In this document: in pieces, positions 9,333 through 35,803 of the stretch
Layout of the letters: each line of letters begins with the position of its first letter
Position numbering within the stretch: position 1 is the first letter of the stretch
DNA from: Phycisphaerales bacterium
GTDB lineage: Bacteria > Planctomycetota > Phycisphaerae > Sedimentisphaerales > Anaerobacaceae
Length of the DNA stretch: 64,000 nucleotides
Direction of reading: 5' to 3'
Assembly: GCA_003170415.1 (NCBI GenBank)
Contig: PMZJ01000025.1
Span: 1-64,000, forward strand
Made by a program: the position numbers and the translations under genes
Notes under the pieces: model-generated
Seen by the model: only the letters and a program-made list of their open reading frames with translations
What the model was told of the DNA's origin: nothing
Database searches by the model: none

Positions 9333-9364
9333 GATTTAACCATGAGTTTTTTAGGAGATATTAA

Positions 9365-11836: not shown

Positions 11837-11868
11837 AAAAGAGGTATAAGAGAAAGGATTTCAAAACA

Positions 11869-14280
11869 ATGACAGATTCGCAGAAAAAGATACTTGCAAG
11901 CTTATCAATAATCCTCGCGTCTCTGGTGATTGTTCCATGTTTTTTTGACACAGCGGCCCAGGCGGAAGCTCCTGTTTCGATTGCCGGGCCTGGGCCGGTA
12001 GATGTGAACGGGGAAATAGCCGCAGCGAATGGCCCGATTGCATATGCCACGCAACAGGTGATTTCCAAAAACGATTCCGAGTCCGTTATTGCTGAAAAAG
12101 CGGCAAAGGTTCTGCCACGCCCCAATCAGTCGGACTGGATGCGGCGGGAGTGGACCTTTTTCCTTCATTACGGCGTGAACGCATTCAGAGGCGTTGAGTG
12201 GGGTAATGGTCGTGAAGATCCCTCGCAGTTCAATCCTTCAGCGTTTGACGCAAACCAATGGGTCAGCGCGATGAAAGATGCCGGAGGCAAAATGATTGTG
12301 CTCGTTTGCAAGCACCACGATGGATTGTGTCTGTGGCCTACCCGCTACACTTCGCATTCGGTCGCATCGAGTACATGGCTTGGCGGCAAAGGCGATGTTG
12401 TCCGAGCTGTTGCCGACGCCGCCCGAAAGCATGGTCTTAAGCTGGGTGTTTATCTTTCACCAGCCGACCTTTACCAACTGAAGACAAATCCGAAAAATCC
12501 TGCCGGTTACTATGGCAACGACAGCAACAGTATCCTTTCTGTTATTCCCACTGATCCCGCTGATTTAAAGAGCAATCCAGCTTTGGGCCGCACACCACCG
12601 GCCGGTTTCGCGAGTTACAAATATGTGGTGGACGACTACAATCGCTATTTTCTCAACCAGCTTTACGAATTGCTGACCGAGTATGGCCCCATTCAAGAAG
12701 TCTGGTTTGACGGTGCGAACCCGGATCCAAGTGTCAAAGAGACCTACAATTATAACGCGTGGTTTGACCTGATCCGCCACTTGCAGCCCGGGGCGATCAT
12801 TTTCGGCAAAGGGCCGGATGGGCGCTGGGTGGGCAATGAGGGTGGCGTCGGGCGCACCACGGAATGGAGCGTCATTCCTCTGCTTGTTCCGCCCGAAAAG
12901 TCCAATTGGCCCGATCTACAGGAAGGGGACATCGGTAGCCGCGCCAAACTCAAGCCCGGTTCGTATCTCTGGTGGTATCCGGCGGAAACCAATGTCACCA
13001 TTCTCGCCAACGGCCAATGGTTTTGGGGGCATAGGAAGCATCCCAGAAGCCTGCCGCAGTTGGTGGACATTTATTACACGTCCATCGGTCGCAACGGAAA
13101 CCTCATTTTGAACCTGTCTCCAGATACGCGTGGTCTGGTTCCGGATGAGCAGCTTGAAGCCTTGAGCCGGATGGCACAGGTGATTAAGGATACATTCGCC
13201 AAAGACCTTGCTGTTGGCGGCAAAATAACGGCCGACAATTCCAATGCCACCAACAGCCCGTCGCTGGCGCTCGACGGAAACCTCGACACCTGGTGGGAAG
13301 CCGCACCGGGACATACCACCGCCACCTTGACGTTGACGCTGCCGGCATCGGTCACGTTCGATGTCGTTTCTTTGCAGGAAGCGGTGGATCATCGCGGTCA
13401 AAGAATTGAATCCTTTGTCATCGAAGCCTTGAATGGGGCGGCGTGGGTTGCGGCGGGAAAAATAGCGTCAGACGAACTGACAACCGTCGGGCACAAACGG
13501 CTGATACGGCTGAAGTCGCCCGTGACCACCAGCCAGGTACGCATTCGCATTACCGGTTCACGCCTGGAACCGACGCTGGCAGAAATCGGACTCTTCAAGC
13601 AATCCGTTTACGGCCAGTCTCCCGTCATTTCAGATCGTGACACCAACGGCCAAGTGACGGTTAGCAACACCGGCGGTTTAAATATGGTTTATACTGTTGA
13701 TGGTAACACGCCGACGGCCAATTCTGCAGCTTACAGTTCACCGATCTCTCTGCCGTTGACCGGCACCGTGCAGGCTGCCTGCGTCATGCCAAACGGCCAG
13801 CTTGGCATCGTGACTTCAAAAACTTTCGCCGGCCTGCCGCAAACCGGTTGGAAAGTCGTCACCGTGGACAGCCAGGAAACAGCCGGAGGCGACAACGCCG
13901 CCGCCAATGCGATTGACGGCAACTCGTCCACGTTCTGGCACACCCGCTGGAATGAGGATATGAAGCTGCCTCATTTCATCACGATTGACATGGGAACTTC
14001 ACATCGGATTGCCGGCTTCACCTATCTGCCGCGCCAGGACGGGAACCTCAATGGCACCGCCGAAAATTACCGTTTTGAAACCAGCATGGATGGAGTCACC
14101 TGGACGACTAATGTCGCTTCGGGCACGTTCGCCAACATTCGGAACAACCCGTCGCTCCAGCAAGTCAGCTTCGCACCCGTCAACGCCCGATTCTTCCGCT
14201 TCACGGCCTTGCAGGAAATCAACAAAAACGGCTGGACGAGCGCTGCCGAGATATCTGTGTTGTCAGCCACCGGTCTTTAG
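11869..14280 (+). CDS. GH29 alpha-L-fucosidase with two F5/8C (CBM32-like) domains
   Basis: A signal-anchor start (KKILASLSIILASLVIVPC) is followed by a GH29 barrel: EWTFFLHYGVNAF, VLVCKHHDGLCLWPT and EVWFDGANPD with the nucleophile Asp281. The barrel is followed by a first F5/8C domain (NSPSLALDGNLDTWWEA, about 460-575), a chitobiase-like segment with MVYTVDGNTPT, and a second F5/8C domain (NAIDGNSSTFWHTRWNEDM, about 675-800). Such add-ons bind galactose-type or uronic residues. Base composition, especially at third codon positions from about 12.1 kb on, is visibly richer in G+C than in the flanking hydrolase genes, suggesting separate acquisition. Confidence 0.86.
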   Translation: MTDSQKKILASLSIILASLVIVPCFFDTAAQAEAPVSIAGPGPVDVNGEIAAANGPIAYATQQVISKNDSESVIAEKAAKVLPRPNQSDWMRREWTFFLHYGVNAFRGVEWGNGREDPSQFNPSAFDANQWVSAMKDAGGKMIVLVCKHHDGLCLWPTRYTSHSVASSTWLGGKGDVVRAVADAARKHGLKLGVYLSPADLYQLKTNPKNPAGYYGNDSNSILSVIPTDPADLKSNPALGRTPPAGFASYKYVVDDYNRYFLNQLYELLTEYGPIQEVWFDGANPDPSVKETYNYNAWFDLIRHLQPGAIIFGKGPDGRWVGNEGGVGRTTEWSVIPLLVPPEKSNWPDLQEGDIGSRAKLKPGSYLWWYPAETNVTILANGQWFWGHRKHPRSLPQLVDIYYTSIGRNGNLILNLSPDTRGLVPDEQLEALSRMAQVIKDTFAKDLAVGGKITADNSNATNSPSLALDGNLDTWWEAAPGHTTATLTLTLPASVTFDVVSLQEAVDHRGQRIESFVIEALNGAAWVAAGKIASDELTTVGHKRLIRLKSPVTTSQVRIRITGSRLEPTLAEIGLFKQSVYGQSPVISDRDTNGQVTVSNTGGLNMVYTVDGNTPTANSAAYSSPISLPLTGTVQAACVMPNGQLGIVTSKTFAGLPQTGWKVVTVDSQETAGGDNAAANAIDGNSSTFWHTRWNEDMKLPHFITIDMGTSHRIAGFTYLPRQDGNLNGTAENYRFETSMDGVTWTTNVASGTFANIRNNPSLQQVSFAPVNARFFRFTALQEINKNGWTSAAEISVLSATGL

Positions 14281-17185: not shown

Positions 17186-17740
17186 TTATATGCTCAACAT
17201 TTTTTCTGAGCGCATTCGCTTAAAAACGATATAATCCTGCTCCTGCTGATTTTCGTTTCTGCAAATATCCAGCATTCGATGGTTTTCATAAAGCCACGAT
17301 TCCGCCCCGGGGCTTTTACGCATATCGAAGACAAATCTGATATTGACGCTGATGTCTCTCAGTGGTTCAATGCCGGGTTCGCTGGATGCAAACTCCATAA
17401 TCTCATCGATGTCTTCTATTACAACGCCTGTATAATACTGTTGGTGTTCCCAGCGGTGCGACACAATCAGTATGCAGCTTAGATTACTGAACGCGGAAGG
17501 CCGACCAAGCAGCAAAATGCCCGGGTCTATGACGGGTATATATAAGCCGTTAAATTCTATAATGCCTCTTATATGAGTGGGCTTCTCATAATCGAGTTTT
17601 ATAAGCTCCCTGCAGCCCAGACAATGCAGGTTCAATTTTCGTGCCTTGGTTTCGTGAGCAAGCAGAAAGGTCGTAAACCAGTAATATTTGCGTTGGCTGC
17701 TCTCTTCGACTTGCTGTGGCTCTTTTGTCATCGTTACCAT
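17186..17740 (-). CDS. CheW-like domain protein
   Basis: The middle of this 184-residue protein (about 60-130) fits the CheW fold: THIRGIIEFNGLYIPVIDPG with the typical RG...GxxxPV.D pattern, then an ILIVSHRWEHQQYYTGVVID-like strand pair and IDEIMEF. CheW proteins couple receptors to the CheA kinase; no che gene or receptor is nearby, and the ~45 residues on each end are not recognisable. A strong AAGGAG precedes the ATG. The gene sits behind a complete four-unit Pho-type promoter (17871-17924) and an 18-bp palindrome, so it probably answers to phosphate limitation. Its partner is unknown. Confidence 0.7.
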   Translation of the reverse strand: MVTMTKEPQQVEESSQRKYYWFTTFLLAHETKARKLNLHCLGCRELIKLDYEKPTHIRGIIEFNGLYIPVIDPGILLLGRPSAFSNLSCILIVSHRWEHQQYYTGVVIEDIDEIMEFASSEPGIEPLRDISVNIRFVFDMRKSPGAESWLYENHRMLDICRNENQQEQDYIVFKRMRSEKMLSI

Positions 17741-17870: not shown

Positions 17871-17924
17871 AGATTAATGAAGGGGTGTCAGTGTTTTATT
17901 AAGTTTCTGTTAGGAATTGGTTAA
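17871..17924 (-). promoter_or_regulatory. Pho-type promoter of the CheW-like gene
   Basis: On the minus strand the units TTAAC, CTAAC, TTAAT and CTGAC start exactly 11 bp apart (plus-strand 17920, 17909, 17898, 17887). Ten bases later comes TAATCT (17871-17876) as a -10 hexamer. This is the same layout as in front of pstS. Confidence 0.7.
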
Positions 17925-18056: not shown

Positions 18057-18124
18057 TTTCCTCCAAATCACAGAGTTGCATTTCAAGTATGGTAATTAGA
18101 AAAAAATGAATGTCGAAACTAAAG

Positions 18125-18227
18125 CCGGCATCGCGACCAGGCGGAAGGTGCAAAAAACGAACCCCAAATTTTGTATAAGATTTTGGATCTTGGCAACCAT
18201 TCCCATCTGCGAGATGCCGGTTTTTTT
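18125..18227 (+). ncRNA. Structured leader with terminator-like end (candidate attenuator or small RNA)
   Basis: CCGGCATC (18125-18132) can pair perfectly with GATGCCGG (18213-18220), which is followed by seven T. The competing hairpin CATCT-GCG-AGATG (18204-18216) uses part of the same strand, so two exclusive folds exist. The interior has further pairing (CCAAA with TTTGG). It lies between the predicted start near 18063 and the gene at 18293. I do not recognise a known riboswitch class. It may regulate read-through into the pseudopilin gene or form a ~160-nt phosphate-induced RNA. Confidence 0.45.
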
Positions 18228-18292
18228 GTATGTGACCCGGACCTGGAGGTTCGGACTATGAATAAGGGTTTTATTAGGTAAGGAGCGGTTTT

Positions 18293-19417
18293 ATGAAGGA
18301 ATCACATGTAACGGCAAAACGGGACAGAGTTTCAAAACGAAAACGAATTATTATGCAGCAGCCGGGGTTCACTTTGGTGGAGTTGCTTGTCGTGATAGCC
18401 ATCATTGCCTTGTTGATGGGGATATTGCTGCCAAGCTTAAACAAGGCAAGACAAACGGCATACTGCGCCAAAACGGGCGGTAATATGCATAACGTTGGGA
18501 TTGCGATGGAAACATTCACAAATGATTTCGGAACTTATCCGCCCTCGTATCTGTATCCGAAAGACGCGACTGTAGATGACGTTAAATCAATCATGTGCGA
18601 TGAGGACCCAAGCCGTCCGTTTGGCTATCTGCACTGGTCGTGGTTTCTGTTTGAAAGCGGCCGTGTGGATGCAAGCGCGTTTACCTGCCCTGCGGTAAAA
18701 AGCGGCGGATGTCCTCGCACCAATCCGGGCAGAAAATTGTCTGATTGGGAAAACCAACAGGTGGACCAGACCGGCAGCAACGGCCCAAATCCCTCGCTTC
18801 AGGACAAGCAGGCGCCTCGAATGGCATTTACCGCCAACGCGGCAGTTATACCGAGGAATAAGTTCGCCTGCGATGACATAACCCATCAATACCCAAGACA
18901 TAACCGGCTGGTTCAACCCACGGAAATTCAACGCCCTGCCGAGGTAATCCTATTAACCGAGTTTAACGAGAATTGGCAGACCATTGAAGGAGTGGACGAA
19001 ATCTCCAGTGCACTGGTAAGTAAAAGCCACAGACCTATTCTGCCTTTTACGCATAGTGCCGCCGGTTATGCCGGCTACGCCATATATACCGATGCAGGCA
19101 CCCGTTTTGAATATGGAACGGGATACAATACCGCGAATGTCTCCTGGGGGCTTAAGTCCTGGGCGGATATTTCAAACCCGGGTAACCATTATGTTGACGG
19201 AGAGTCAGGTCAACAACTCAACGCCGTAGGCAGACATCATCCCGGAAGCTGGAGAGCCACTACCGATAAAGGAGCTAATCAGGATATGGGCGGCACCACG
19301 ATGTTCCTTTATTGTGACGGACATACCGAGAGAAAAACAATTCTTGAGACGGTTCAAAAACTCGAATGGGGCAAAAAATTCTACAGCGTAACGGGCGACC
19401 AGATGGTCCTTTATTGA
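18293..19417 (+). CDS. Pseudopilin-like protein (type II/IV prepilin N-terminus)
   Basis: A good GGAG precedes the ATG. After a basic 22-residue leader comes the prepilin motif GFTLVELLVVIAIIALL with the G|F cleavage site and Glu at +5, then a long hydrophobic helix and LLPSLNKARQ. The ~330-residue globular part has several cysteine and Trp-rich patches and ends in a TTMFLYCDGHTE motif, the DGH tail common in planctomycetal and lentisphaeral prepilin-like proteins. Export and assembly would need a prepilin peptidase, not present in this window. It is under a Pho-type promoter and 196 nt upstream of the PstS-dockerin gene, with no terminator between them, so the two are probably co-transcribed. 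The ligand is unknown. Confidence 0.82.
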   Translation: MKESHVTAKRDRVSKRKRIIMQQPGFTLVELLVVIAIIALLMGILLPSLNKARQTAYCAKTGGNMHNVGIAMETFTNDFGTYPPSYLYPKDATVDDVKSIMCDEDPSRPFGYLHWSWFLFESGRVDASAFTCPAVKSGGCPRTNPGRKLSDWENQQVDQTGSNGPNPSLQDKQAPRMAFTANAAVIPRNKFACDDITHQYPRHNRLVQPTEIQRPAEVILLTEFNENWQTIEGVDEISSALVSKSHRPILPFTHSAAGYAGYAIYTDAGTRFEYGTGYNTANVSWGLKSWADISNPGNHYVDGESGQQLNAVGRHHPGSWRATTDKGANQDMGGTTMFLYCDGHTERKTILETVQKLEWGKKFYSVTGDQMVLY

Positions 19418-19613: not shown

Positions 19614-22226
19614 ATGAGCATCAGAAAAACGTTTTTGGCGGCGATGGCTTTGTGCTGTATGCTGCCTGTCTCACTTTTTGCCGTCACATACGGCCACGGA
19701 AACCAGGTTAATATCTCAGGCGCGACTTTGTTCGCGAGTTTCTTTTCAGCGCCCGCGGGAACTAATGACTACTTGGGCGTTGACCAGGGACTGAATTATA
19801 TGGACAGTACCGGAGCACAACTTTACACCGACGGAGATTTCTTCCGTGGTTATGACCCGTATAATTACAACCTCCCTGACCAATTGGCGTTCAGCGATTG
19901 GACTTCAACCGATGCAAATAACCGCTGGGTAGTGCAGAGCCGCGGCGTCGGCAGCGGTAACGGCCTCAAAGAGCTCGACCTGTTCTATAACAGCGCCCCT
20001 CCAGGCCCAAATAACCCGAATTTTGTACTCCCAAATGACAAATCATACATCAATCGCACACAATGGGGTTACTCCGGCGGATTGATGGGCCCCGGTAATC
20101 CGGCCAACCCGGGTGGATGCGTCGTAGTTCCGCCAAGAATTGATATGGCAGTTATGGATGTTCCGCCAAGGTGGTTTGTGATAGCTGGCGCTGCTGCAAA
20201 CGCTAACTGGCAGGCACATCCGCTGGATGCTGCCGATGGATATGGCCAAAACCCTATTAAATCATGGGACACCGGCCAGAGTAATCAATTGAAAACCCTG
20301 ACCAACCTCAATTTGAACGATCCTCCTGACGCACTGACCATAGTCGGTACACAGGTGGCCTGGGTTGCAAGCGCGTTTATTGCCAACCAGGGAACCGGTT
20401 TGAAAAACGTTACTCAGAATGATATGCAGTATCTGTTTATGACCGGTCGTATGCCAGGCGGCGAAAACCTTTATGCCTGCACACGTGACTCCGGCTCAGG
20501 CACTCGTAACGGAGTGATGAACTCTCTTGGTTTGGACCCGAGCTGGGGCAGAGGCGACAATATGGGCACCAAGAACTCAAGCGGTAACATCTCTTATGTC
20601 GGACCGCTCCATCAGCCAACCAACCTTGACGGCACAAGCGTTATGGCAAATAACGTTACGAACCAGCGTCTGTCAATAGGATACGTCGGCCTTACCACGG
20701 CTAACGGGCAAACCGGCGCGTCCAACTCGGCTTACCAAATACTTAATCTCAAAAAGACCGGCGGTACGCAGTATGTCAGACCTTCAACCACCGACACCGT
20801 GGACAACGCTGATATTAATACCGGCTGGCAAATCGGCGGAAACGAAACCTTCGCGACAGTCGGCAGCCCTGACCCAAATGCTGCCTTCGTGATGCCTTAC
20901 AACAGGTATGCACGCGACTATCTCTGGAACATCAGCAAGAGCATAGCTGAGTTTATTGCCCCCACTACAAGTGACGATCAGAATAATATGCCCGGTCAGT
21001 ACATGGCCAGGAACTGGTCGCTGGCTGCCGCTCTCCAGGCACTTCCGCAGGACAGCGCACCAAGCGTTTTTGTTACGAATCCGAATTACAACGCAAACGT
21101 AAACGCCTATTACAAGTTAAACGGTCCGACTACACCGGCCTGGGTCGATGGTCCGGGTAAAGTCCCGACACGACTTACTGGCGTAACCTATAGTGATGGT
21201 GTAACCGGCTCGAACTCGTACTACCTTGCTTCGGACGGAACTCATCTTGTCTACGGCGGAAATTTGAATCCCCGTAATCAGATTATGGGCGACTTCGATG
21301 GTGACGGAAAGCGCGACATCGGTGACATTCACGATATGATGGTTGCGTTCTCCAATCCTCGCGGTTTCGAGACAGCCAGCGGTGGAACAGGCGTCTGCCC
21401 GGAAATCATCGGCGACTTCACCGCTGACGGCAACTTCACAACCGATGATATTCGGTACTTTGCCGATGGTCTGGCAGTGGTTGACCCGGTCAGCAAACAG
21501 GTCAATCGCTCAGTTGGTTTTGCATTGGTTGACCAGGCCTGGACATCAACCCTTGCCGCTTTGGATGGCAATCATCCGACAGCAGGCAACTTCTTCAATA
21601 CGACTCTTGCACACGGCACCTATCAGCCCGGTTCCGGCTGGTCAAAGGCCGACATTGCAACGCACAATTGGAGAACAACTAAACCGACGATTGGTTATAC
21701 CCCAAGCGCAGATGGCGTTATTGACGCCTGTGACATCGACTATCTCTACTTCATAATCCGCGGCGGACTTAAGGCACAGGCCTTTGGTCAGACCTTGGCT
21801 GCCAACTGCAACTCATGGCAAAAATCGATGAACTGGAACAACCTTGATGACGCCGTATGGATGGATTTGACCTGCGACCTCAATGGCGATATGAAAGTTG
21901 ATATCGACGATGTCAGAACCATCGTTTTAACCATCCTCGGAACGCATTTCGGCGATGCCAATCTCGACGGCGTTGTTGATGCAACTGATATTGCGATTGT
22001 TACCGCTCATCTTGGTCAGCAGGGCGGGTGGGCACAGGGTGATTTTGACGGCGATGGCTGGGTTACTGAATGCGACCTCGATATCGCACTCGCCGCTCAA
22101 AGCGGACAATATGGAGCAATCGAAAGCGCACAAATTGGCGGAAGTGCAGACCTCAACGGTGATGGCATTGTGAACTTCGAGGACTTTGCTATCTTTGCAA
22201 ATCAATGGCTGCAGACAACTAATTAA
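19614..22226 (+). CDS. PstS-like phosphate-binding domain fused to dockerin/EF-hand-type repeats
   Basis: A strong AGGAGG leads to a signal peptide (KTFLAAMALCCMLPVSLFA). The N-terminal ~500 residues read as a PstS-type binding protein: VNISGATLFASFF (like the GxGATFP start of PstS), a VTQNDMQYLFMTGRMPGGENL segment matching the ...IFxGKIxxW region, and YACTRDSGSGTRNGV, the phosphate-contact RDxGSGT loop. The rest (about 545-870) holds at least five acidic Ca-binding-type repeats: DFDGDGKRDIGDI, DFTADGNFTTDDI, DLNGDMKVDIDDV, DANLDGVVDATDI and DLNGDGIVNFEDFAIFANQW at the end. It is over three times the length of a normal PstS and lacks a lipobox. Probably secreted or surface-held phosphate binder. 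Function is inferred; alternative ligands remain possible. Confidence 0.75.
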   Translation: MSIRKTFLAAMALCCMLPVSLFAVTYGHGNQVNISGATLFASFFSAPAGTNDYLGVDQGLNYMDSTGAQLYTDGDFFRGYDPYNYNLPDQLAFSDWTSTDANNRWVVQSRGVGSGNGLKELDLFYNSAPPGPNNPNFVLPNDKSYINRTQWGYSGGLMGPGNPANPGGCVVVPPRIDMAVMDVPPRWFVIAGAAANANWQAHPLDAADGYGQNPIKSWDTGQSNQLKTLTNLNLNDPPDALTIVGTQVAWVASAFIANQGTGLKNVTQNDMQYLFMTGRMPGGENLYACTRDSGSGTRNGVMNSLGLDPSWGRGDNMGTKNSSGNISYVGPLHQPTNLDGTSVMANNVTNQRLSIGYVGLTTANGQTGASNSAYQILNLKKTGGTQYVRPSTTDTVDNADINTGWQIGGNETFATVGSPDPNAAFVMPYNRYARDYLWNISKSIAEFIAPTTSDDQNNMPGQYMARNWSLAAALQALPQDSAPSVFVTNPNYNANVNAYYKLNGPTTPAWVDGPGKVPTRLTGVTYSDGVTGSNSYYLASDGTHLVYGGNLNPRNQIMGDFDGDGKRDIGDIHDMMVAFSNPRGFETASGGTGVCPEIIGDFTADGNFTTDDIRYFADGLAVVDPVSKQVNRSVGFALVDQAWTSTLAALDGNHPTAGNFFNTTLAHGTYQPGSGWSKADIATHNWRTTKPTIGYTPSADGVIDACDIDYLYFIIRGGLKAQAFGQTLAANCNSWQKSMNWNNLDDAVWMDLTCDLNGDMKVDIDDVRTIVLTILGTHFGDANLDGVVDATDIAIVTAHLGQQGGWAQGDFDGDGWVTECDLDIALAAQSGQYGAIESAQIGGSADLNGDGIVNFEDFAIFANQWLQTTN

Positions 22227-23175: not shown

Positions 23176-24186
23176 ATGCCTATGAAGAGAAAAGGATTTA
23201 CGCTGGTGGAACTGTTAGTCGTCATCGCGATAATAGCGCTATTGATGGGTATTCTGCTGCCTTCATTGGCACGTGTCAGGGTAATTGCGAACAGGATGAA
23301 ATGCGGCTCTCAACTGGCCGATATCGGTAAATCGATGATAATGTACGGGGAGGAGAACCGGCAGAATTATCCGGTCGGAGGCATCCGCGGCAGCACCTGG
23401 GCACAATTTAGCACAACTACCCCCGGCATCTTGAAATGGGACGCATCAACAAGGGAATCGGCATTTGCAAACAGCGGCAAGAATGCTACGACATCTTCGT
23501 GCCTGTTTTTGTTGATTAAATACGGCAATATGGTGCCTAAACAATTCACCTGCCCGGACGATGCCGATGCCAAAGAATTTACTTTAGCCGATGAGTATAA
23601 GTCCATGGGTATTACAGACACAACCCAAATGATCAAGGAAGTTTCTGATGCGTGGGACTTTGGCAGCAACCCAGGCGTTTGCTGCAGTTATTCATATCAT
23701 ATGCCCTTTCCAAACACCGATAATACCACGATATCACATTGTTTAGACGCAACATCAAGCCCTGGAAGCCCGCTTTGTGCGGACAGAAATCCCTACCTGG
23801 ATAAAAATGCCAAAGATTACCTGAAAGACCCGAGGATTCCTAATCCATATCTGGGAACAACAGACGGAGAATACCACGATGACAAATTCAAAGGTAATTG
23901 TGCTTCTCATGGCCGCAAGGCGCAAAACGTTTTATTTAACGACGGCCACGTTGCAGCCGAGCTGTATCCAAATTGCGGAATAAACGACGACAATATATGG
24001 AAGTTCTGGCCTTCCTATACCGCAGCACCTACAAATACGGAACTTGAAGTTGGAGCAGGGGTATCTCCTCCTCCGGCGTCGGCAGGCGCAGAAAACCTCC
24101 AATATACACCAGGTGCTGGTTCTGCATCTCCAAAGAGTAAGGACGATGCCTGTCTTGTCAACGAAAGAAACGATAATAAGGAGTAG
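23176..24186 (+). CDS. Second pseudopilin-like protein
   Basis: AAGGAG at six bases selects the ATG at 23176. The short leader MPMKRKG is followed by FTLVELLVVIAIIALL, then LLPSLARVRVIANRMKCG. The globular part (about 300 residues) has NVLFNDGHVAAEL, the same DGH tail motif as the protein at 18293, and paired cysteines; the last ~50 residues are Ala/Pro/Ser-rich. The two proteins share layout rather than close sequence. It carries its own Pho-type promoter and is followed by a hairpin before phoU, which is convergent. Confidence 0.82.
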   Translation: MPMKRKGFTLVELLVVIAIIALLMGILLPSLARVRVIANRMKCGSQLADIGKSMIMYGEENRQNYPVGGIRGSTWAQFSTTTPGILKWDASTRESAFANSGKNATTSSCLFLLIKYGNMVPKQFTCPDDADAKEFTLADEYKSMGITDTTQMIKEVSDAWDFGSNPGVCCSYSYHMPFPNTDNTTISHCLDATSSPGSPLCADRNPYLDKNAKDYLKDPRIPNPYLGTTDGEYHDDKFKGNCASHGRKAQNVLFNDGHVAAELYPNCGINDDNIWKFWPSYTAAPTNTELEVGAGVSPPPASAGAENLQYTPGAGSASPKSKDDACLVNERNDNKE

Positions 24187-24312: not shown

Positions 24313-24978
24313 CTATTTGTATTCCTCGGTTCGGTGGCGGGCGATTTGTCCCTCGACCATATAGATGACGTCCTCGGCGATATTGGTGGCGTGGTCGGCT
24401 ATTCGCTCGAGATGCCTCGATACCGACAGTAAATGGATCAGCGAATCCAATTGTTCGGGATTTTTCCTTATGGCATCCTGTATTTTGATATACATTTGCC
24501 TGTTCATCGCGTCAATGGCATCATCGCTTGCGCAAACCTCGTGAGCCAGGCCGGAACTGAGGCCGATAAGCGCATCCAAACTGTGCTTGAGCATATCCTG
24601 TGCCTGTTCAGCCATTTCAACCAGGCCAAGTGATACATCAACCCGCTGGTGTTTGGCCAGGAACGCAGAACGCTCCGCGATATTCACCGCCAAATCGCCG
24701 ATGCGTTCGAGGTCATTATTGATTTTCAGCACGGCAACGATAAAACGCAGGTCGATAGCTACTGGCTGATGAAGAGCGAGCGCCTTGAGACAATCTTCCT
24801 CGACCTCTATTTCGAGCAGGTCAATTTGGGGGTCATTCTGGATTATCTTCTGAGCCAGGTCGTAATCGCGGGTTTCTATCGAAAGCGTCGCGTCACGCAC
24901 GGCTGTTTCAACCATGGCGCTCAGTGTTAACAGTTTCTTTTTCAGATTCTCAATTTCTCGCTGTAAATGAACCGGCAT
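24313..24978 (-). CDS. phoU: Phosphate transport regulator PhoU
   Basis: This is a normal-length PhoU (221 residues) made of two three-helix repeats. Each carries the metal-site motif: LKINNDLERIGDLAVNIAE and LSVSRHLERIADHATNIAED. PhoU links the Pst transporter to PhoR and restrains uptake when phosphate is plentiful. GAGGATT precedes the ATG at 24978. It is the last gene of pstS-C-A-B-phoU and lies 25 nt after pstB. Confidence 0.95.
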   Translation of the reverse strand: MPVHLQREIENLKKKLLTLSAMVETAVRDATLSIETRDYDLAQKIIQNDPQIDLLEIEVEEDCLKALALHQPVAIDLRFIVAVLKINNDLERIGDLAVNIAERSAFLAKHQRVDVSLGLVEMAEQAQDMLKHSLDALIGLSSGLAHEVCASDDAIDAMNRQMYIKIQDAIRKNPEQLDSLIHLLSVSRHLERIADHATNIAEDVIYMVEGQIARHRTEEYK

Positions 24979-25003: not shown

Positions 25004-25813
25004 TTATCCGAATCTGCCTGTTATGTAATCTTCCGTCTTTTTGTTGGAGGGGTTCTCGAAAATCTTTGAGGTCAGGTCGTATTCTATAAGCTCACCGAGG
25101 CAGAAGAACGCGGTCGTCTCACTGACGCGTGCCGCCTGCTGCATATTGTGCGTGACTATAACGATTGTGTAATCGTTTTTGAGCTGATTGATAAGATCTT
25201 CGATTTTGCCCGTGGCCAGCGGGTCAAGAGCGGAACACGGCTCATCCATAAGCAGCACCCGCGGCCTGGTCGCAAGAGCGCGTGCAATACACAGCCGCTG
25301 CTGCTGGCCGCCGGAAAGGGCCAAAGCGGATTTTCTCAAATTGTCTTTTACTTCTTCCCACAGGGCAGATGCTTTCAAACTCTGTTCTATAACTTCATCC
25401 AGGGCTGTCCTTTGGGTGATGCCCTGCAGACGCGGGCCGTATGCCACGTTGTCGAATATGCTTTTGGGAAATGGATTTGGTTTTTGGAAGACCATCCCGA
25501 CCTGCTGACGAAGATTTACGAGATTGACCCGCTTGTCGTAGATGTCCTGGCCGTCCACGACCAGTTTACCTTCTGTCCACACACCCGGTATGAGGTCGTT
25601 CATACGGTTTATGCTGCGAAGAAACGTGCTTTTGCCGCAGCCGCTCGGGCCGATTATCGCGGTAACACTGCACGGATTTATATTCATCGTAATGTTCTTC
25701 ACGCCCATCGTTGTGCCGTAGTAAAAATTGAAGTCCTTTGAACTTATTATTGGACAGGCACATTGTGCGGTTTCCCCGTTTTGGGCTGTCTTGTCGCGTA
25801 TATTCTCTTTCAT
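25004..25813 (-). CDS. pstB: Phosphate ABC transporter ATP-binding protein PstB
   Basis: Walker [10 protein letters not shown], the Q-loop [19 protein letters not shown] typical of PstB, signature LSGGQQQR, Walker [14 protein letters not shown] and the H-loop VTHNMQQA are all intact. Length from the ATG at 25813 is 269 residues, as expected. The frame is open to an ATG at 25891 just after the pstA stop, which would add 26 basic residues without homology; that start cannot be ruled out because GAGG lies rather far from 25813. Confidence 0.94.
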
Positions 25814-25894
25814 AATTGGTTCAATCCTCTTTTTGTCCACGGTTCGACTATGCTCACCGCGGGCTGATTGTAAAAGTCGCATCGTCGCCATTGT

Positions 25895-27520
25895 TTAATG
25901 ACCCGCCAGTTTTTTAAACATTCTTGAACGAAGTATAATTGCCACAGTATTAAGACAGAGAATCAGCAGCACTAATGTTACGACCATCCCGAACTGGTTA
26001 TGCGGCACCATAGCGGCCAGCTTATCGCCGACGGCCATATCGTAACTGCCGTAGGAAAGCGTGCGTGTCGGGTCAAATATGGACTTAGGCACCGGCCCAA
26101 GCGCAACCGCCCCCGTAAACAGGACCGGCGCCGTCTCGCCTGCAACCCTGCTCAAGCTCAGTATTACGCCCGTGAGAATCCCCGGCAGCGCCGCTGGCAG
26201 AGTTACTTTGACAAATGTGCGGAATCTGCTTGCTCCCAAAGCTAATGACGCTTCTTTGTAGGTCTGGGGCACGGCTCGTATCGCCTCCTCGCTTGCTCGT
26301 ATCATAACCGGCAAGGTCAATACGGCCAGTGTCATCGAGGCGGCCAGGATGCATCCCTTTGAAGGCGCTCCAAAAAGCGGCAGGAAAAATAACACGAAAA
26401 ACGCAAGCCCAAAAAGGCCGAAAACAATACTCGGGACGCCCGCGAGGGTATTTATGCTCATCCTGATAATTCTGATGACAAGATTATCAGATGCGCATTC
26501 CACCAGATAGGCGGCGGAAATAACGCCGAAAGGCACGACAAAAAGCATAGCGAGTATGGTTAATAAAAGTGTTCCGAGAATTTCGGGGCCGACGCCGCCG
26601 AAGTAATGGCCGGGAGTGCTGTCGTCTATGAAATATTGCCAGTAAAAAGTCGGTTTCGGCTTGAGCATTTCAGGCAGATTCTTCTGAATGTAAATGAAAA
26701 GGCCCTCAATCTCTGTGCCGGCAAACCTCTGCGAACGAGGCGTGAGACGTTTGACCATCGGCTGTCCTGGTCCCTGCTTAATCCATTCCTCATACCAGCA
26801 CAGTTGGCCAAGCAGCTTTTGTGCCAGGTCCCAGCGTGTGGCCCCAAAACGATTCATCATCAAAGCCGGCGTTGCTGTTCCAGGCGCGGGACCCAATAGT
26901 TCGGTTAAAATATCTTCTACCTGCCGAATTTCCTGATAATATCTTTGTCTTTCGGCAAGATTAATCCCGTGTATGTCTTTGCTATACTGTTCGGCAAGCC
27001 CAATGAGACCCGCTGCGGAAGTATTCTTAAACCGCGGGTCGTCTTTGAAGTTGAGGACGTATGCTAAGGATTCGTTCACTTCCGCCGCGTTCGAGCTTGC
27101 GAAAGCCGATTCGAGCCGGTCGCGAATCTGTCTTGTAACAGACCTTAACTCGGCGACTTCCTCTGCGGTTCGGTCTGTTTGCCGGAGGTCATTTCCGAAC
27201 TGACGGTAAATTTGCTTTGCTTTGTCTATAAGGGCTTCGGAATCGATACCACCTTTGAATTTTTCGATTGTGCTGTAAATTTTCGCCCGTGCGATTTCCG
27301 CCTGTCTGCTTTCTGCTGCTATCTTGTCTTCATCGCCCCGGCCGAACAGCACTAATTGCATCTTTCTGAATTCGACTGTCCCCTTGAACGCGACCGCTGA
27401 ACCTCCGCGCCAAAGCATCGGCCCCAGCACGCCTGCCAGCACCAGGCACAGGCAAACCACCGAAGCTCCCGCAACAACGGTGAATATCTTGTCTATCGCA
27501 ATTCGGATACCGGGTCTCAT
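25895..27520 (-). CDS. pstA: Phosphate ABC transporter permease PstA with large extracytoplasmic insertion
   Basis: The C-terminal ~240 residues are a standard PstA permease, with the EAA loop TYKEASLALGASRFRTFVKV and SRVAGETAPVLFTG. In front of it, after a first membrane helix (about 13-37), lies a ~240-residue hydrophilic, mostly helical segment (about 50-290) that ordinary 280-300-residue PstA lacks. Some proteobacterial PstA proteins carry a comparable N-terminal DUF3333 region; whether this is homologous is not evident. Its ATG overlaps the pstC stop by one base. The insert would face the periplasm, near the PstS docking face. Confidence 0.9.
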   Translation of the reverse strand: MRPGIRIAIDKIFTVVAGASVVCLCLVLAGVLGPMLWRGGSAVAFKGTVEFRKMQLVLFGRGDEDKIAAESRQAEIARAKIYSTIEKFKGGIDSEALIDKAKQIYRQFGNDLRQTDRTAEEVAELRSVTRQIRDRLESAFASSNAAEVNESLAYVLNFKDDPRFKNTSAAGLIGLAEQYSKDIHGINLAERQRYYQEIRQVEDILTELLGPAPGTATPALMMNRFGATRWDLAQKLLGQLCWYEEWIKQGPGQPMVKRLTPRSQRFAGTEIEGLFIYIQKNLPEMLKPKPTFYWQYFIDDSTPGHYFGGVGPEILGTLLLTILAMLFVVPFGVISAAYLVECASDNLVIRIIRMSINTLAGVPSIVFGLFGLAFFVLFFLPLFGAPSKGCILAASMTLAVLTLPVMIRASEEAIRAVPQTYKEASLALGASRFRTFVKVTLPAALPGILTGVILSLSRVAGETAPVLFTGAVALGPVPKSIFDPTRTLSYGSYDMAVGDKLAAMVPHNQFGMVVTLVLLILCLNTVAIILRSRMFKKLAGH

Positions 27521-28413
27521 CAGCGTTTCCCGCCCGCTTGTTTGGCTCGTATAAGAAAATATTCGCTAACCATATTCAGGCACAAAATTATAACTAGCAG
27601 CAGCAATCCCGCGGCAAAAAGAGCCCTGTAATGAGGGGAGCCCTTTTCTGTTTCGCCCATATCGCCCGCGATTGTCGCCGTCAGCGTCCGAACCGATTGC
27701 GACAAATCCCACCACGGGCTCGGTATCTGCGCGGCGTTTCCCGACGCCATCCACACGACCATCGTCTCACCGATTGCCCTCATCATTCCAAGCACTATCC
27801 CGGCGATTATTCCGCTGTGTGCGGCCGGTATAACAACTTTGAAAATCGTCTCCATCCGCGTCGCGCCGCACCCGTATGATGCCTCTCTCAATTCCCGTCC
27901 TACCGCTGAGATTGAATCTTCCGAAACACTTATTATCGTGGGTAACGCCATCACCGCCAGAATAAGCGACGCGTTAAGGGCGTTGGTCCCGGTTGAAAAT
28001 CCGAACTTTTCCTGCATCCACGGAGCCAGAACCATCACCGCGAAAAAACCGTAAGCAACCGACGGTATCGCCGCGAGAATCTCAATAATCGGCTTTATGA
28101 TGTTCCTGATTTTCATCGAAACAATATCGCTCAGGAAAACCGCGGCTAAAATACCAACCGGCACGGCAAATATAATCGAGACAATTGTTACGTATCCGGA
28201 ACCCACAAGTAACGCGAGCGTCCCGAATTTAGGGGGGACCGCTTCGGGATACCAAGCTGTGCTTGTGAGAAACTCTTTTATGCTGAATTTGGCGAGAAAC
28301 GGCATCGCTTCCCTGACTACGAACAGGAAAATCAGAAACACCGCCAAGACAGAGGTGCATGTAACAAGAAAAAGGGCCGTCCGGCCGAGGTGAAGTGTAA
28401 GGAAACCCCTCAT
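27520..28413 (-). CDS. pstC: Phosphate ABC transporter permease PstC
   Basis: Six membrane spans and the EAA loop LREASYGCGATRMETIFKV with RAIGETMVVWMASGN mark PstC. The first span begins at about residue 12 when the ATG at 28413 is used. The frame is open to a GTG at 28464, but that segment contains a perfect 9-bp stem (28437-28458) and has no RBS; the start at 28413 is therefore preferred, although GAGG lies close to it. One-base overlap with pstA. Confidence 0.92.
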   Translation of the reverse strand: MRGFLTLHLGRTALFLVTCTSVLAVFLIFLFVVREAMPFLAKFSIKEFLTSTAWYPEAVPPKFGTLALLVGSGYVTIVSIIFAVPVGILAAVFLSDIVSMKIRNIIKPIIEILAAIPSVAYGFFAVMVLAPWMQEKFGFSTGTNALNASLILAVMALPTIISVSEDSISAVGRELREASYGCGATRMETIFKVVIPAAHSGIIAGIVLGMMRAIGETMVVWMASGNAAQIPSPWWDLSQSVRTLTATIAGDMGETEKGSPHYRALFAAGLLLLVIILCLNMVSEYFLIRAKQAGGKR

Positions 28414-28436
28414 ATCCTCGGTTGGTGTAAGCACCA

Positions 28437-28458
28437 GCGGCCGATGTAAATCGGCCGC
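28437..28458. other. Perfect intercistronic stem-loop between pstS and pstC
   Basis: GCGGCCGAT and ATCGGCCGC pair around GTAA. No T-run follows on the minus strand. Such hairpins after the binding-protein gene commonly protect the upstream mRNA so that the binding protein is made in excess over the permease. Confidence 0.6.
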
Positions 28459-28524
28459 CGGCACTAACGTGTCTAATAAAGTTCCCCGCTTTGCTTTAAT
28501 CGCTGAACTCCCAACAACAGGTAA

Positions 28525-29343
28525 TTAGTAATTCGTCACAGGAACAAATCCCTTCGCCAAAATAATTTCCTGGCCCTTTTCGGTCAGATAGAACGTGCAA
28601 AACTTAAAGACCGTTGACCCAAGTTTTGGATAGCCATTCGTGAACATAAACAAAGGTCTCGATACAGGGTAAGTGCCGTTTGAAATGGTCTGCTTTGTCG
28701 GCGCAATTCCGTCGATTTTCAACGCCTTGACGTCGGCATCAACGAAACCAAGACCTACGTAGCCGATTGCCCCGGTGGTGGTCTTGACCCTGGCTTGTGC
28801 CTGCGGATTCGAGTTGACGTATTCGACGTTACTGGCCAGCTTTTCCTCGTTCATAATCTTATCGTTGAACGTTTCGTATGTTCCCGACGATGTGTCTCTG
28901 CTGACAATCACTATCTCCGCATCGGGACCGCCTATTTCTTTCCAGTTCTTGATTTTGCCTGCGTAAATATCACGCACCTGGGCCGTAGTCAGTGCGCTTA
29001 CGGTATTCGACGGATGCACGATAATACATACGCCGTCCATAGCAATCGCGTGTGCGACCGGGAACACGTTTTTTGCCACGGCGCTTTGGAACTCCTTATC
29101 CTTCATAAACCTGCTCATAGTGGCTATGTCGCACCGGCTGTCTAACAACGCGGCCGCTCCGTCGCCGGACCCCGTCTTCTTGACGGTAATCTCAAGACCG
29201 GGGTTTGTCCTCATAAAATACTCCGCGAAAGCATCCGCAATTGGCCCGACGGTCGTGGAACCTTCAATCTGCAGCGTTTCCGCCCGCACCTGACCGGTGA
29301 CTGCGAGCGCCAACAAAACCAAACTACATACTAATCTCTTCAT
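28525..29343 (-). CDS. pstS: Phosphate-binding protein PstS
   Basis: A signal peptide (KRLVCSLVLLALAVTGQVRA) is followed by TLQIEGSTTVGPIADAFAEY, TGSGDGAAALLDSRCDIATM, the AGKIKNWKEIGG segment and SRDTSSGTYETF, the phosphate-contact loop. Length (272) is that of the compact PstS type. The conserved lipobox is missing, so it is periplasmic. AGAAGGAG precedes the ATG. The complete Pho-type promoter directly upstream would drive the pst operon. Confidence 0.95.
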   Translation of the reverse strand: MKRLVCSLVLLALAVTGQVRAETLQIEGSTTVGPIADAFAEYFMRTNPGLEITVKKTGSGDGAAALLDSRCDIATMSRFMKDKEFQSAVAKNVFPVAHAIAMDGVCIIVHPSNTVSALTTAQVRDIYAGKIKNWKEIGGPDAEIVIVSRDTSSGTYETFNDKIMNEEKLASNVEYVNSNPQAQARVKTTTGAIGYVGLGFVDADVKALKIDGIAPTKQTISNGTYPVSRPLFMFTNGYPKLGSTVFKFCTFYLTEKGQEIILAKGFVPVTNY

Positions 29344-29430: not shown

Positions 29431-30702
29431 CTAAAACTTGAACACCAGGTCCGCCTGCAGCCGGCGATATTTATCGTTTGTGGTTATATTTTCATCGATG
29501 AAGTAGGTCAGGGCGGTCTGGAAATTCTTCGCTAATTGATAGGTGAAGTTAAACCAGTGCCCCCTGGCATTTGTGCCGCCGCCGTTGAAATCCGAATCGT
29601 TGAATTGGCCTACCACGGCATCGGACTGAACTTCGCGATAGTTATAGCCGAGTTGCCATGAGCCGGGGTCTTTGGCCTTGTTGAACGTCGTACCGATAAG
29701 CCAGGCATTGTTATGTGAACCGGGCGCATCCGTGTTATGAGCAACATCACCATACACTGCGACCGGATAATCCGCGATTTTAGTGCCGTATTCCGCGAAT
29801 CCTTCGACGATGTCATAACCATATCTGTAATCTCCGGCCACTGGGGCTGAGGTGTTGCCGAATAAGCTGTACTTGCCCCACAGCGAGCTAACGTTGGGCT
29901 CATCTTTGATATTGCCATAGGTGTAATAACTCATACCCCCTAACAGATAGCTCTTGTCCTCGAACGTATTCTTTAGATAACCCTGTATCCCCCACAGCGA
30001 TGTAGAAGCCGAAACTGCAGTATCAGGATTATCGGGATTTCCAACCCAGAATCCGCCGCCGTTGATATATGCCTTTAACGAATCGCTAATCGGCAGTTCG
30101 TATTTGGCCGCCAGTCCTTCAGGATTCAAATCGTCATCCCAGATTAACTGGTTGCTGCCGACACGGTAGAAGGGCTGGGGCATTTTGCCGCCTATGAAGT
30201 CAAAACCCTTTATATCTTTAGGATGCCAGTCAAAATACGCCTGGTCTAACCAAATCGGTTTCTTGCTGAAAGCATCCCCCTCGGTCTGGTTTGTAGAAGT
30301 AGGGTCGCCGTTTGACCCGCTGGCTAAACGGAATCCAACGTCAACCTCGTCATTGACTTTATCGTAAATTCCAATCCTGGCGCGAAGCCGATTTCTTTCG
30401 TAGCTGTTGCCTGCCCATTTGCCGCTTTTCTGTGAATCAATCCCCTCGTAGCGGTATCGCAAATCACCGCTGATTTTCATGTTTTCCACCCACTTCATAC
30501 TGTCCGGCACCGTAGATTTCTTCTCTACGGCCTTATTGACCTCCTCGGCGACGACCTTCTTCTGCTGCGCTTCCATCTGGTCAATCCTGGCCTGCAAATC
30601 AGCGAGTTGCTTCTTCATATCGCTGATGTCGTCTGCCTTTACGCTACAGGCGAAAACCAGGCCCAGCAGCAGACACCCACAAATCATCCTTAACTTACTC
30701 AT
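29431..30702 (-). CDS. Outer-membrane porin with N-terminal coiled coil
   Basis: GGAGGT seven bases upstream fixes the ATG at 30702. A signal peptide (LRMICGCLLLGLVFACSVKA) is followed by a short coiled coil (DISDMKKQLADLQARIDQME) and then alternating beta strands to a terminal Phe (DLVFKF), as in outer-membrane barrels; the LRYRYEGID start of the barrel fits the planctomycetal putative porin group. The coiled coil resembles trimeric OprP/OprO-like porins in layout. It has its own Pho-type promoter, so phosphate or phosphate-ester passage is the likely job. Homology to OprP itself is not claimed. Confidence 0.8.
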   Translation of the reverse strand: MSKLRMICGCLLLGLVFACSVKADDISDMKKQLADLQARIDQMEAQQKKVVAEEVNKAVEKKSTVPDSMKWVENMKISGDLRYRYEGIDSQKSGKWAGNSYERNRLRARIGIYDKVNDEVDVGFRLASGSNGDPTSTNQTEGDAFSKKPIWLDQAYFDWHPKDIKGFDFIGGKMPQPFYRVGSNQLIWDDDLNPEGLAAKYELPISDSLKAYINGGGFWVGNPDNPDTAVSASTSLWGIQGYLKNTFEDKSYLLGGMSYYTYGNIKDEPNVSSLWGKYSLFGNTSAPVAGDYRYGYDIVEGFAEYGTKIADYPVAVYGDVAHNTDAPGSHNNAWLIGTTFNKAKDPGSWQLGYNYREVQSDAVVGQFNDSDFNGGGTNARGHWFNFTYQLAKNFQTALTYFIDENITTNDKYRRLQADLVFKF

Positions 30703-30788
30703 TACTCGTACCTCCATAAAAAAACTCCTTTATTACTTGAACGCTGACCCGAGACCACCCCGGATGGCGTCGTACCCGTTTAGGTAGA

Positions 30789-30883: not shown

Positions 30884-32656
30884 CTATCTAATAGGCAGGT
30901 GAATAGTGAAGGTGCTGCCCTGGCCGGGGGTGCTTTCGACAGAAACCCTCCCGCCGTGAAGATTGGTGATATGTTTGACTATCGCAAGGCCAAGCCCCGT
31001 CCCGCCGAGTTTTCTGCTGCGGGCCTTATCGACAACGTAGAACCGCTCGAATATGCGTGAAAGATGGCTCTTTTCTATGCCGCAACCCGAATCATTCACC
31101 GCGATAATCACTTCATTTTCGGTTGCGTGTGCGATTATCTGAATCGTGCTTCCAGCGGAACTGTATTTAATAGCGTTATCAACGAGATTCAAAACCGCCT
31201 GCTCGAGCAAAGTCGGATTTATCATCGCCTCCAAATCGTCATCGCAATTAATCTCGACTTTGATTTTCTTGTCGCTCGCCTTCGGGCCGGAAAGCTCAAC
31301 TGCCGATTCGAGAACAGACCTGACCTTCAAATGCTCCCTCGCAATCATCCTCGTCTGGCCGTTTTCTTCCAGGCGGGACAAACTCAGTAAATCCTCGATA
31401 ATCGCCATCAATCTGTCGGTATGGCCCGCTATAATGGTGAGAAATCGTCGCGCCTGTTCGGGTTCGTTAATGGCGCCGTCCAAGAGTGTCTCAACAAATC
31501 CTTTGATGGAAGTAATCGGCGTTCTCAGCTCGTGAGAGACGTTGGCCACAAAGTCGCGCCTGATATTTTCCAGCCGCTGCATCCTCGTCATATCGCTCAA
31601 GACGATAACGGCCCCGCTTTTATTGCCCTGATGGTCGGTAAGGTATGTGCCTCTGGCTCGCAGCGAAACGGGCTTCTCTGCCGACAGAGTAATATCCTCT
31701 TCGGTTGGCGCAGAGGACATCAGGGTATATCGCATAAATCGCTGAATATCCACGTTCCTGATTGTCTCTTCGATACTGTGTTCCGTAGCCGAGACGCCGT
31801 CTATCTCAAGAAGTTGTGCCGCTTTCTTATTGATACTCACGACTCGTCCATCCGAATCGACAGCTATCACGCCCTCGGCCATGCTGCTCAAAATCGCTTC
31901 AAGCTGATTCTTCTGGTTTGTTATGGTTTCGATTGTCCCCTTGAGACGGTCTGCGGTTTCGTTGAGCGCTCCCGCAAGCTCGGCTAATTCCTCAGAGTCC
32001 GGCACAGGGACCCTGTGGTCTAACTGGCCGGCGGCAAACCGCTTTGCGGCGTCTTTCATTTGTTCGATGGGCCTGGTTATCTTGCGGGATACAACCAAAG
32101 TCACACCTGCCGCACAAACCGCCGCCCCCACCATTCCCCAGATGATTTTTGCATAAATATCATTCAGTGCCTTGTCAACGGCGGTAACTGGAAGTGCCCC
32201 GCGAATTACAACTATGGTCTGCTCCTGCTCTTTGAGAGGCACGGCGATATACATCATATTTTTGCCTAAGGTATCGCTGAATCGCACGCTCCTGCCGGTC
32301 TGCCCGTTCATTGCCTGCCTGAACTCAGGACGGTCCGCGTGATTTTCCATTTTGGCCGGCTGCTGGTCCGAATCACCGACAACCCGGCCGTCAGGAAGTA
32401 TCATCGTCAGCCGAATCCCGGCGGTTTGACCGAGCAATTTGCATAAATGGTCAACTTCGTCGAATTTCTTCTCGTCCAATGCGGTTAAAATATCCCGCTC
32501 TGCAAGCTCAGTCCTCGATTTAAGGTCCCTGGCAACCTCATCGTAGTAAAACCAGCGGAACGAATAAGACGCATACCAGCTTAAAAGAACAAGCGCAAGG
32601 ATAGTAATTATCAGGTAGGGAAGGTAAAGCTGCCAAAGCAGACGCCTTTTCGCCAT
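30884..32656 (-). CDS. phoR: Phosphate sensor histidine kinase PhoR
   Basis: Two membrane helices (about 9-35 and 165-190) bracket a ~130-residue extracytoplasmic sensor. HAMP follows (RKITRPIEQMKDAAKRFAAG), then PAS (LEAILSSMAEGVIAVDSDGR), HisKA with the phospho-acceptor His375 in VSHELRTP, and HATPase motifs NLVDNAIKYS, DSGCGIEK and GTGLGLAIVKHI. This is the Gram-positive-style PhoR with a true sensor domain rather than the short E. coli type. The ATG lies 3 nt beyond the phoB stop, so they are co-translated. No separate promoter is seen. Confidence 0.9.
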   Translation of the reverse strand: MAKRRLLWQLYLPYLIITILALVLLSWYASYSFRWFYYDEVARDLKSRTELAERDILTALDEKKFDEVDHLCKLLGQTAGIRLTMILPDGRVVGDSDQQPAKMENHADRPEFRQAMNGQTGRSVRFSDTLGKNMMYIAVPLKEQEQTIVVIRGALPVTAVDKALNDIYAKIIWGMVGAAVCAAGVTLVVSRKITRPIEQMKDAAKRFAAGQLDHRVPVPDSEELAELAGALNETADRLKGTIETITNQKNQLEAILSSMAEGVIAVDSDGRVVSINKKAAQLLEIDGVSATEHSIEETIRNVDIQRFMRYTLMSSAPTEEDITLSAEKPVSLRARGTYLTDHQGNKSGAVIVLSDMTRMQRLENIRRDFVANVSHELRTPITSIKGFVETLLDGAINEPEQARRFLTIIAGHTDRLMAIIEDLLSLSRLEENGQTRMIAREHLKVRSVLESAVELSGPKASDKKIKVEINCDDDLEAMINPTLLEQAVLNLVDNAIKYSSAGSTIQIIAHATENEVIIAVNDSGCGIEKSHLSRIFERFYVVDKARSRKLGGTGLGLAIVKHITNLHGGRVSVESTPGQGSTFTIHLPIR

Positions 32657-32659
32657 CCA

Positions 32660-33343
32660 TTAGTCCTTGAAACGATAGCCCACGCCTCTTACGGTCTCAA
32701 TGTATTTTCCGAACTGGCCGAGCTTGCGCCGCAACGACACAATCTGCACATCCACGGCCCGGTCGGTCACAACATAATTGCTCCCGCGAATCGCGTCAAC
32801 TATATTGTATCTGCTCAGCACTAATCCCGGTTTCCTCGCCAGCGTATAAAGAATCATAAACTCCGTAAAAGTAAGTTCTACCAGCTTGTTTTTGAGTTTC
32901 ACCTCGTATCGGGCTGGGTCTATGGTCAGGTCGTGAATCTTGACGGGCGTATTTTCCTGCTTTGCCGCTGTTGCCCTGTATAGAACCCGCCGCACCCTGG
33001 CAATAAGAACCTTGGGGCTAAACGGCTTTGTAACGTAATCATCCGCGCCGACCTCCAGTCCGGAGACAACGTCGGACTCCTCACCTTTGGCGGTCAGCAT
33101 TATTATAGGTATAGAGCTGGTTTTCGAGTCGGCCTTAAGCTGCCTGCAAACCTCGATACCGTCTATTCCCGGTAGCATACGGTCAAGCAGTATCGCGCTG
33201 GGCGGGTTGGCCTTTGCCTTTTTAATCGCCTCTTCGCCGGTAATGGCCGTTTCAACTTTGAATCCTTCTTTGTTGAAGTTGTAACGCACCAGCTCCAGCA
33301 CATCTTCTTCGTCATCTACAGCAAGTATGCTTCCTCTGACCAC
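32660..33343 (-). CDS. phoB: Phosphate response regulator PhoB
   Basis: The receiver domain has DDEED acid pocket residues, phospho-acceptor Asp54 in LLDRMLPG and K in MLTAKGE; the C-terminal winged helix is OmpR/PhoB type, with LTFTEFMILYTLARKPG and VQIVSLRRKLGQFGKYIETV. Start is a GTG at 33343 preceded by AAAGGG. A Pho-type promoter with one weak unit lies 30-83 nt upstream, indicating autoregulation. It is the expected binder of all the 11-bp repeat boxes listed here. Confidence 0.92.
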   Translation of the reverse strand: MVRGSILAVDDEEDVLELVRYNFNKEGFKVETAITGEEAIKKAKANPPSAILLDRMLPGIDGIEVCRQLKADSKTSSIPIIMLTAKGEESDVVSGLEVGADDYVTKPFSPKVLIARVRRVLYRATAAKQENTPVKIHDLTIDPARYEVKLKNKLVELTFTEFMILYTLARKPGLVLSRYNIVDAIRGSNYVVTDRAVDVQIVSLRRKLGQFGKYIETVRGVGYRFKD

Positions 33344-35776: not shown

Positions 35777-35803
35777 GGCATACAAGATAAGCGGAGACGT
35801 CTT

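Follow-up and report, generated by a model that had tools for sequence, protein, structure and literature searches.

Phosphate capture is generally regarded as a periplasmic process, and secreted proteins of the PstS type have been linked chiefly to the DING proteins of Pseudomonas. In Escherichia coli PstS, phosphate is contacted by residues T10, F11, S38, D56, R135, S139, G140 and T141, with F11 acting through its main chain. We know of no DING protein, Psp included, that has a calcium-type repeat chain or a PEP-CTERM or dockerin tail. Psp of Pseudomonas fluorescens SBW25, a PstS-like DING protein, is induced by Pi limitation, possesses a Pho-box-like motif, is secreted mainly via the Hxc type II system encoded adjacent to it, and has been proposed as a phosphate scavenger for Pst (PMC2225411).

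The gene analyzed here, hereafter PSTL, resembles the DING/Psp proteins (PDB 2q9t and 4f1u, among its structural matches at E of about 2e-3) in its PstS-like character and a proposed role in extracellular scavenging; a candidate Pho-box-like site also lies at some distance upstream of the PSTL locus. It differs in that a whole type II secretion cluster adjoins psp, whereas a single pilin-like gene adjoins PSTL, and the DINGGG signature characteristic of DING proteins was absent from the PSTL N terminus. With ordinary PstS (TIGR02136, TIGR00975, PF12849), PSTL shares a type II periplasmic binding protein (PBP) fold, seven of eight contact residues, an IGYVG-type motif and, in part of its family, a pst/pho gene neighborhood, but it is set apart by insertions, an EF-hand/dockerin chain, sorting tails, a pilin-like partner and the presence of a separate pstS in the genome.

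Domain layout of PSTL

PSTL is encoded in a 64-kb window, the whole stretch of DNA analyzed here, which is contig C30 of a 2.67-Mb, 95% complete Phycisphaerae assembly whose closest public relatives are Phycisphaerales MAGs. Its parts are as follows.

19614..22226, + strand: PSTL, 870 aa with an ATG start; PstS-like domain followed by an EF-hand/dockerin-type chain
19701..21122, + strand: PstS-type (type II PBP) domain, residues ~30-503
21279..21953, + strand: middle region, residues 556-780; conserved and family-specific, with EF-hand-like loop-helix units
21951..22223, + strand: dockerin-type tail with loops at residues 781, 810 and 846; C terminus FANQWLQTTN

The N terminus begins with a signal-peptide-like segment, beyond which the protein continues as ...YGHGNQVNISGATLF. 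Pfam placed Dockerin_1 (PF00404) at residues 780-824 (30.9 bits against a cutoff of 22.9, E = 3e-7) and an EF-hand pair below threshold, and a scan with NCBIfam gave no match above cutoff. The N-terminal domain was recognized by neither collection, with no PBP match from the curated PstS/PBP_like_2 models, and PF12849 was reached by a single one of 40 homologues (0.005). As this domain is invisible to curated models, the sequence-only reading, which had picked out PstS signatures by eye, was worthwhile: SGATLFASFF lies at residues 35-44 and YACTRDSGSGTRNGV at residues 287-301. Matches also bore out two of its other observations, that the FANQWL tail recurs on other ORFs of the genome and that a normal pstS stands separately at 28525-29343 (TIGR02136, 3e-80).

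Fold and phosphate pocket

An alignment of 40 diverse PSTL homologues was used for invariance counts and for AlphaFold2. The full-length model (pLDDT 83.6, pTM 0.84) had 34 Foldseek matches in the PDB at E ≤ 1e-3, all of them phosphate-binding proteins such as PstS and PhoX, the best being 4ecf (1.6e-6); the first match from outside the phosphate binders was a ferric-binding protein at 5e-3. AlphaFold2 and Foldseek thus predict a PstS-type type II PBP fold, the comparison by which the domain call had been proposed to stand or fall. TM-scores were modest (about 0.5 normalized by target) because of large insertions in PSTL, whose N-terminal domain spans about 470 residues compared to about 250 in ordinary PstS. 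A sequence-profile search alone reached the PstS chains 4exl (0.0096) and 4ecf (0.011). Profile-profile alignment of PSTL residues 1-520 with PstS by hhalign gave P = 8e-8 globally and 3e-5 locally, whereas the full-length alignment, before trimming to the PBP domain, was weaker (P = 0.005). The register placed TRDSGSGT of PSTL on SRDTSSGT of PstS and IGYVGL on IGYVGL. Locally, the profile alignment with PstS was good for the second half of the PBP domain only, and with a profile seeded on E. coli PstS the local alignment worked, whereas the global one did not align.

Scored against the eight contact residues, with numbering checked on the E. coli sequence, PSTL was identical at seven, F11 being replaced by L39. 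The counterparts are as follows.

19719..19727, + strand: G36-A37-T38, counterpart of E. coli PstS GAT10; invariant or at least 90% conserved in 40 homologues
19950..19958, + strand: G113-S114-G115, counterpart of E. coli PstS S38; S114 invariant
20157..20159, + strand: D182, counterpart of E. coli PstS D56; invariant
20484..20504, + strand: R291-D-S-G-S295-G296-T297, counterpart of E. coli PstS R135/S139/G140/T141; R291, S295, G296 and T297 invariant

All seven ligand residues (T38, S114, D182, R291, S295, G296 and T297) fall within the only 38 invariant columns among the 40 homologues, and the columns of GAT, RxxGSGxG, D182 and R291..S295-G296-T297 vary little or not at all. We infer that PSTL would bind phosphate. 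E. coli PstS D137 is replaced by S293, with D292 adjacent, and the large insertions mean that ligand choice could differ.

Calcium-type chain and exchangeable tail

Canonical 12-residue calcium-type loops start at PSTL residues 560, 601, 781, 810 and 846, and homologues carry a mean of 4.2 such loops compared to 0.12 in shuffled sequences. In the AlphaFold2 model, each loop is backed by a helix, and two further, degenerate loop-helix units occur at residues ~696-715 and ~755-774, giving seven units across residues ~556-870, five of them with canonical loops. The earlier count of at least five acidic calcium-binding-type repeats therefore stands.

Residues 556-780 are conserved across the family together with the PBP domain, whereas the terminal ~90 residues are not: homologues end in dockerin tails, GC-type dockerin-like tails or a PEP-CTERM segment (VPEPA...RRRK). 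Among the 40 homologues, 18 had Dockerin_1 and seven had a PEP-CTERM tail, a motif absent from the PSTL of the window. Since the tail is replaced in relatives, its behavior is that of an exchangeable module for sorting or attachment, and no sequence evidence speaks more strongly than this exchange for a tail that serves in sorting or attachment outside the cytoplasm and probably beyond the periplasm. A calcium-loop chain with exchangeable sorting tails fits an extracellular place.

The sequence-only reading had assigned the repeats a calcium-dependent attachment role, for which we found no support: no cohesin (PF00963) was detected at E ≤ 1 in the 95% complete assembly, and residues 556-780 belong to the conserved body of the family and are not an anchor added to it. 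A cellulosome-like reading likewise gained no support, as no cohesin was detected. Compared to type I dockerins (PF00404) and the proposed 'planctosome' (PMC6461901), PSTL is alike in that residues 780-870 exceed the Dockerin_1 cutoff and other ORFs of the genome match too; it differs in that no cohesin was detected here, residues 556-780 are family-specific and relatives swap the tail for PEP-CTERM. The genome carries a dozen dockerin-type matches, with no cohesin detected alongside them, and four secretin matches.

Two homologues from genomes of family f10, L092 (442-3537, - strand) and L093 (8127-11219, + strand), carry an additional N-terminal domain of ~200 residues, which in the one scanned is a lamin-tail domain (LTD, 1.6e-12). 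The 'planctosome' proposal (PMC6461901) likewise calls on LTD for anchoring.

A pilin-like partner

Directly upstream of PSTL is a pilin-like gene, pp1, that the sequence-only reading had missed; a second pilin-like gene lies downstream.

18293..19417, + strand: pp1, pilin-like/pseudopilin-type, 374 aa; prepilin N-terminal motif and a large conserved C-terminal domain
23176..24186, + strand: pp2, second pilin-like gene, unrelated to pp1; adjoins PSTL only within this genus

The pp1 N terminus has an N_methyl match in Pfam and scores 28.7 bits with TIGR02532 (cutoff 16.3), and pp1 stays below the equivalog cutoffs of GspG (36.8 against 88.9 bits) and GspH (25.7 against 80 bits). Its model (AlphaFold2, pLDDT 85.7) had pilins as its nearest folds in the PDB, weakly (E ≥ 0.4) and over the pilin helix only. 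With type II pseudopilins (TIGR02532, PF07963), pp1 shares a prepilin N-terminal helix motif as well as a long helix of pilin type, but it differs in its C-terminal ~300 aa, which lack a convincing PDB match, and in its constant pairing with PSTL. The full-length family is single-copy in the genome, the other ~24 matches covering the N-terminal pilin segment only.

The pp1 family was present in 94 of the 95 genomes with PSTL and lay within 3 kb of it in 92; in the remaining two, pp1 was on another contig in one and 78 kb away in the other. In the single genome with PSTL only, PSTL sits at a contig end. No conserved neighbor family beyond pst/pho and pp1 was found around PSTL loci, so pp1 and PSTL form a unit.

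The pp1 leader (18105-18292, + strand) is 94% conserved in three congeners and contains a long stem, GCCGGCATC...GATGCCGG, with a run of T after it, resembling an attenuator or riboswitch-type element; its folding z-score is modest (-1.8). An Rfam scan of the window and the leader returned a tRNA and nothing else.

Phosphate gene context

In the window, the pp1-PSTL pair lies 2 kb from a phosphate uptake and regulation cluster.

24313..24978, - strand: phoU (TIGR02135, 1.3e-59)
25004..28464, - strand: pstB, pstA and pstC (TIGR00972, TIGR00974, TIGR02138)
28525..29343, - strand: ordinary pstS (TIGR02136)
29431..30717, - strand: putative porin of the pst operon (Porin_5, 7e-48)
30884..33343, - strand: phoR-like sensor kinase (NCBIfam PnpS over cutoff) and phoB-like response regulator (PhoB 7e-71, below the curated cutoff)
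17885..17924, + strand: Pho-box-like site made up of four 11-bp-spaced units (GTGTCAG/TTATTAA/CTGTTAG/TGGTTAA); pp1 begins about 370 bp further downstream

Genes for pst/pho adjoin the pair in about a dozen of 47 loci examined; in about three quarters of the 47, no pst/pho gene was detected within about 9 kb, though many of these loci are distant from the query and lie on short contigs. Most pst-linked loci carry their own ordinary pstS. In three genomes (G239, G023 and G030), the pair is situated between phoR and the porin/pst genes on one strand. In G298 the order is phoB-phoR-pp1-PSTL-pstS, with phoR to pstS on one strand, and in G037 the order is phoB, phoR, pp1, PSTL, pstS, pstC, pstA, pstB and phoU, with other ORFs separating phoR and pp1.

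The Pho-box-like site had the top four-unit score in the window (32.8, compared to 30.8 for the best of 20 first-order simulated 64-kb sequences), under scoring weights that were hand-set and slightly relaxed after a first look, in intergenic DNA that is AT-rich. Other high-scoring sites lie upstream of pstS (29379), the porin (30803) and phoB (33387), and a four-unit site also precedes an exopolyphosphatase-like gene (35132). The site near pp1 falls within a block conserved with pp1 in two congeners. Relative to pp1, it is oriented opposite to the pstS, porin and phoB sites; given this orientation and its distance of ~370 bp, it may serve the divergent gene at 17186-17740.

That gene (- strand), weakly CheW-like, shares the intergenic region with the site. 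On the other side of the pst/pho genes, a polyphosphate cluster adjoins phoB (34097-41980, + strand), comprising PPK2, two HD/Ppx-domain proteins, a CHAD protein, Ppx/GppA and PPK1.

Distribution of the family

The match table placed PSTL in 95 of 397 genomes of class Phycisphaerae, extending to other genomes the domain pair that the sequence-only reading had proposed to look for. In a phylum sample of 392 genomes, all ten PSTL matches fell within the same class. The distribution is patchy, one congener (G002) having no PSTL, and no relatives were found among viral contigs or plasmids. A literature search for Planctomycetes, PstS and dockerin together found no paper. PSTL apparently represents an unnamed family, seen only in class Phycisphaerae within the genomes sampled, and an undescribed, class-restricted group in which the PstS-like protein comes with a pilin-like partner dedicated to it.

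One set of genomes (family f13, e.g. G103:C1:3622756-3625589 and G066:C4) encodes a PSTL subfamily that is more diverged and has a pp1-like neighbor to itself, and some genomes of this type have a pp1-like gene without a detected PSTL. Further members were probably missed by the profile.

Proposed function and alternatives

The most economical reading of these data is extracytoplasmic phosphate capture under phosphate starvation, for which Psp of P. fluorescens is the precedent. On balance, we think it probable that PSTL is a surface-located or secreted phosphate-capture protein of the Pho regulon, exported by Sec, with pp1 aiding its export or anchoring and Pst taking the phosphate in. PSTL would be Sec-exported under Pho control to a probable location on the outer surface or in the medium, where its PstS-type domain would close over orthophosphate with the PstS ligand set. 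The EF-hand/dockerin-type loops, if loaded with calcium, could form a rigid stalk ending in the exchangeable sorting or attachment tail. We postulate that pp1 brings PSTL to the surface or keeps it there, whether as a dedicated pseudopilin within machinery resembling type II secretion or as a pilin-type anchor, and that captured phosphate might then pass through the operon porin to periplasmic PstS and on to PstCAB. The pair may represent a kit that captures phosphate extracellularly and delivers it to the ordinary importer. Established computationally are the fold, the ligand residues, the exchange of tails, the pairing with pp1 across the class and the Pho linkage; phosphate binding, calcium loading, secretion, hand-over and the part played by pp1 are inferred. 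Of the earlier proposal that a phosphate-binding protein is held outside the cell by calcium repeats, the external phosphate-binding protein gains from the PstS-type fold, ligand residues, Pho context and tails, whereas attachment through the repeats is not supported; for its suggestion of mineral-phosphate binding, we found no supporting evidence.

An unlikely alternative reading is that PSTL and pp1 both belong to a surface fiber or adhesin, in which the PBP fold would be phosphate-sensing or structural and would not feed uptake. The constant partner is indeed pilin-like, with a large C-terminal domain lacking assignment, and most loci have no pst genes nearby; however, invariance of the ligand residues points to phosphate use, and the pair is embedded in a pho/pst operon in several genomes. 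The same invariance, together with structural matches at E ≤ 1e-3 that are all phosphate-binding proteins, makes it improbable that PSTL has kept the PstS fold but binds some other ligand outside the cell (an organic phosphate, polyphosphate, a phosphonate or a different oxyanion), although large insertions around the pocket, the changes of D137 to S and F11 to L, and good local alignment confined to the second half of the PBP domain would all be in keeping with this.

PSTL might instead be an alternative periplasmic binding protein that feeds PstCAB directly, with its C-terminal chain a stability module. A PstS-type pocket and pst linkage are what such a receptor would have, but the window and several linked loci have a normal pstS together with pstC, PSTL is about three times as large as PstS, the PEP-CTERM and dockerin-type tails of homologues suggest export beyond the periplasm, and the gene that consistently neighbors PSTL codes for a pilin-like protein, not a permease. 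We regard this explanation as quite improbable.

Returning to extracytoplasmic capture, a stronger and more doubtful version is that Phycisphaerae possess a class-wide two-gene surface module without a described counterpart, in which the pilin-like protein carries or extrudes a calcium-stiffened PstS-type receptor at the cell surface, phosphate is caught outside the outer membrane and a dedicated porin hands it to Pst. More generally, a conserved family with calcium-type chains, exchangeable surface-sorting tails and one dedicated pilin-like partner, present in roughly a quarter of the sampled Phycisphaerae genomes, would represent a second way of scavenging phosphate outside the cell. It would also point to a role for one of the numerous planctomycete pilin-like genes that lack an explanation, and for dockerin-type tails in the absence of a detected cohesin.

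Other genes in the window

Elsewhere in the window, a run of glycosidases (7605-14280, + strand) comprises two alpha-L-fucosidase family proteins, a GH2 enzyme and then a GH39, and an adjacent pair of DUF1501 and PSCyt2-PSD1 (DUF1549/DUF1553) genes is located at 46147-49067 (- strand).
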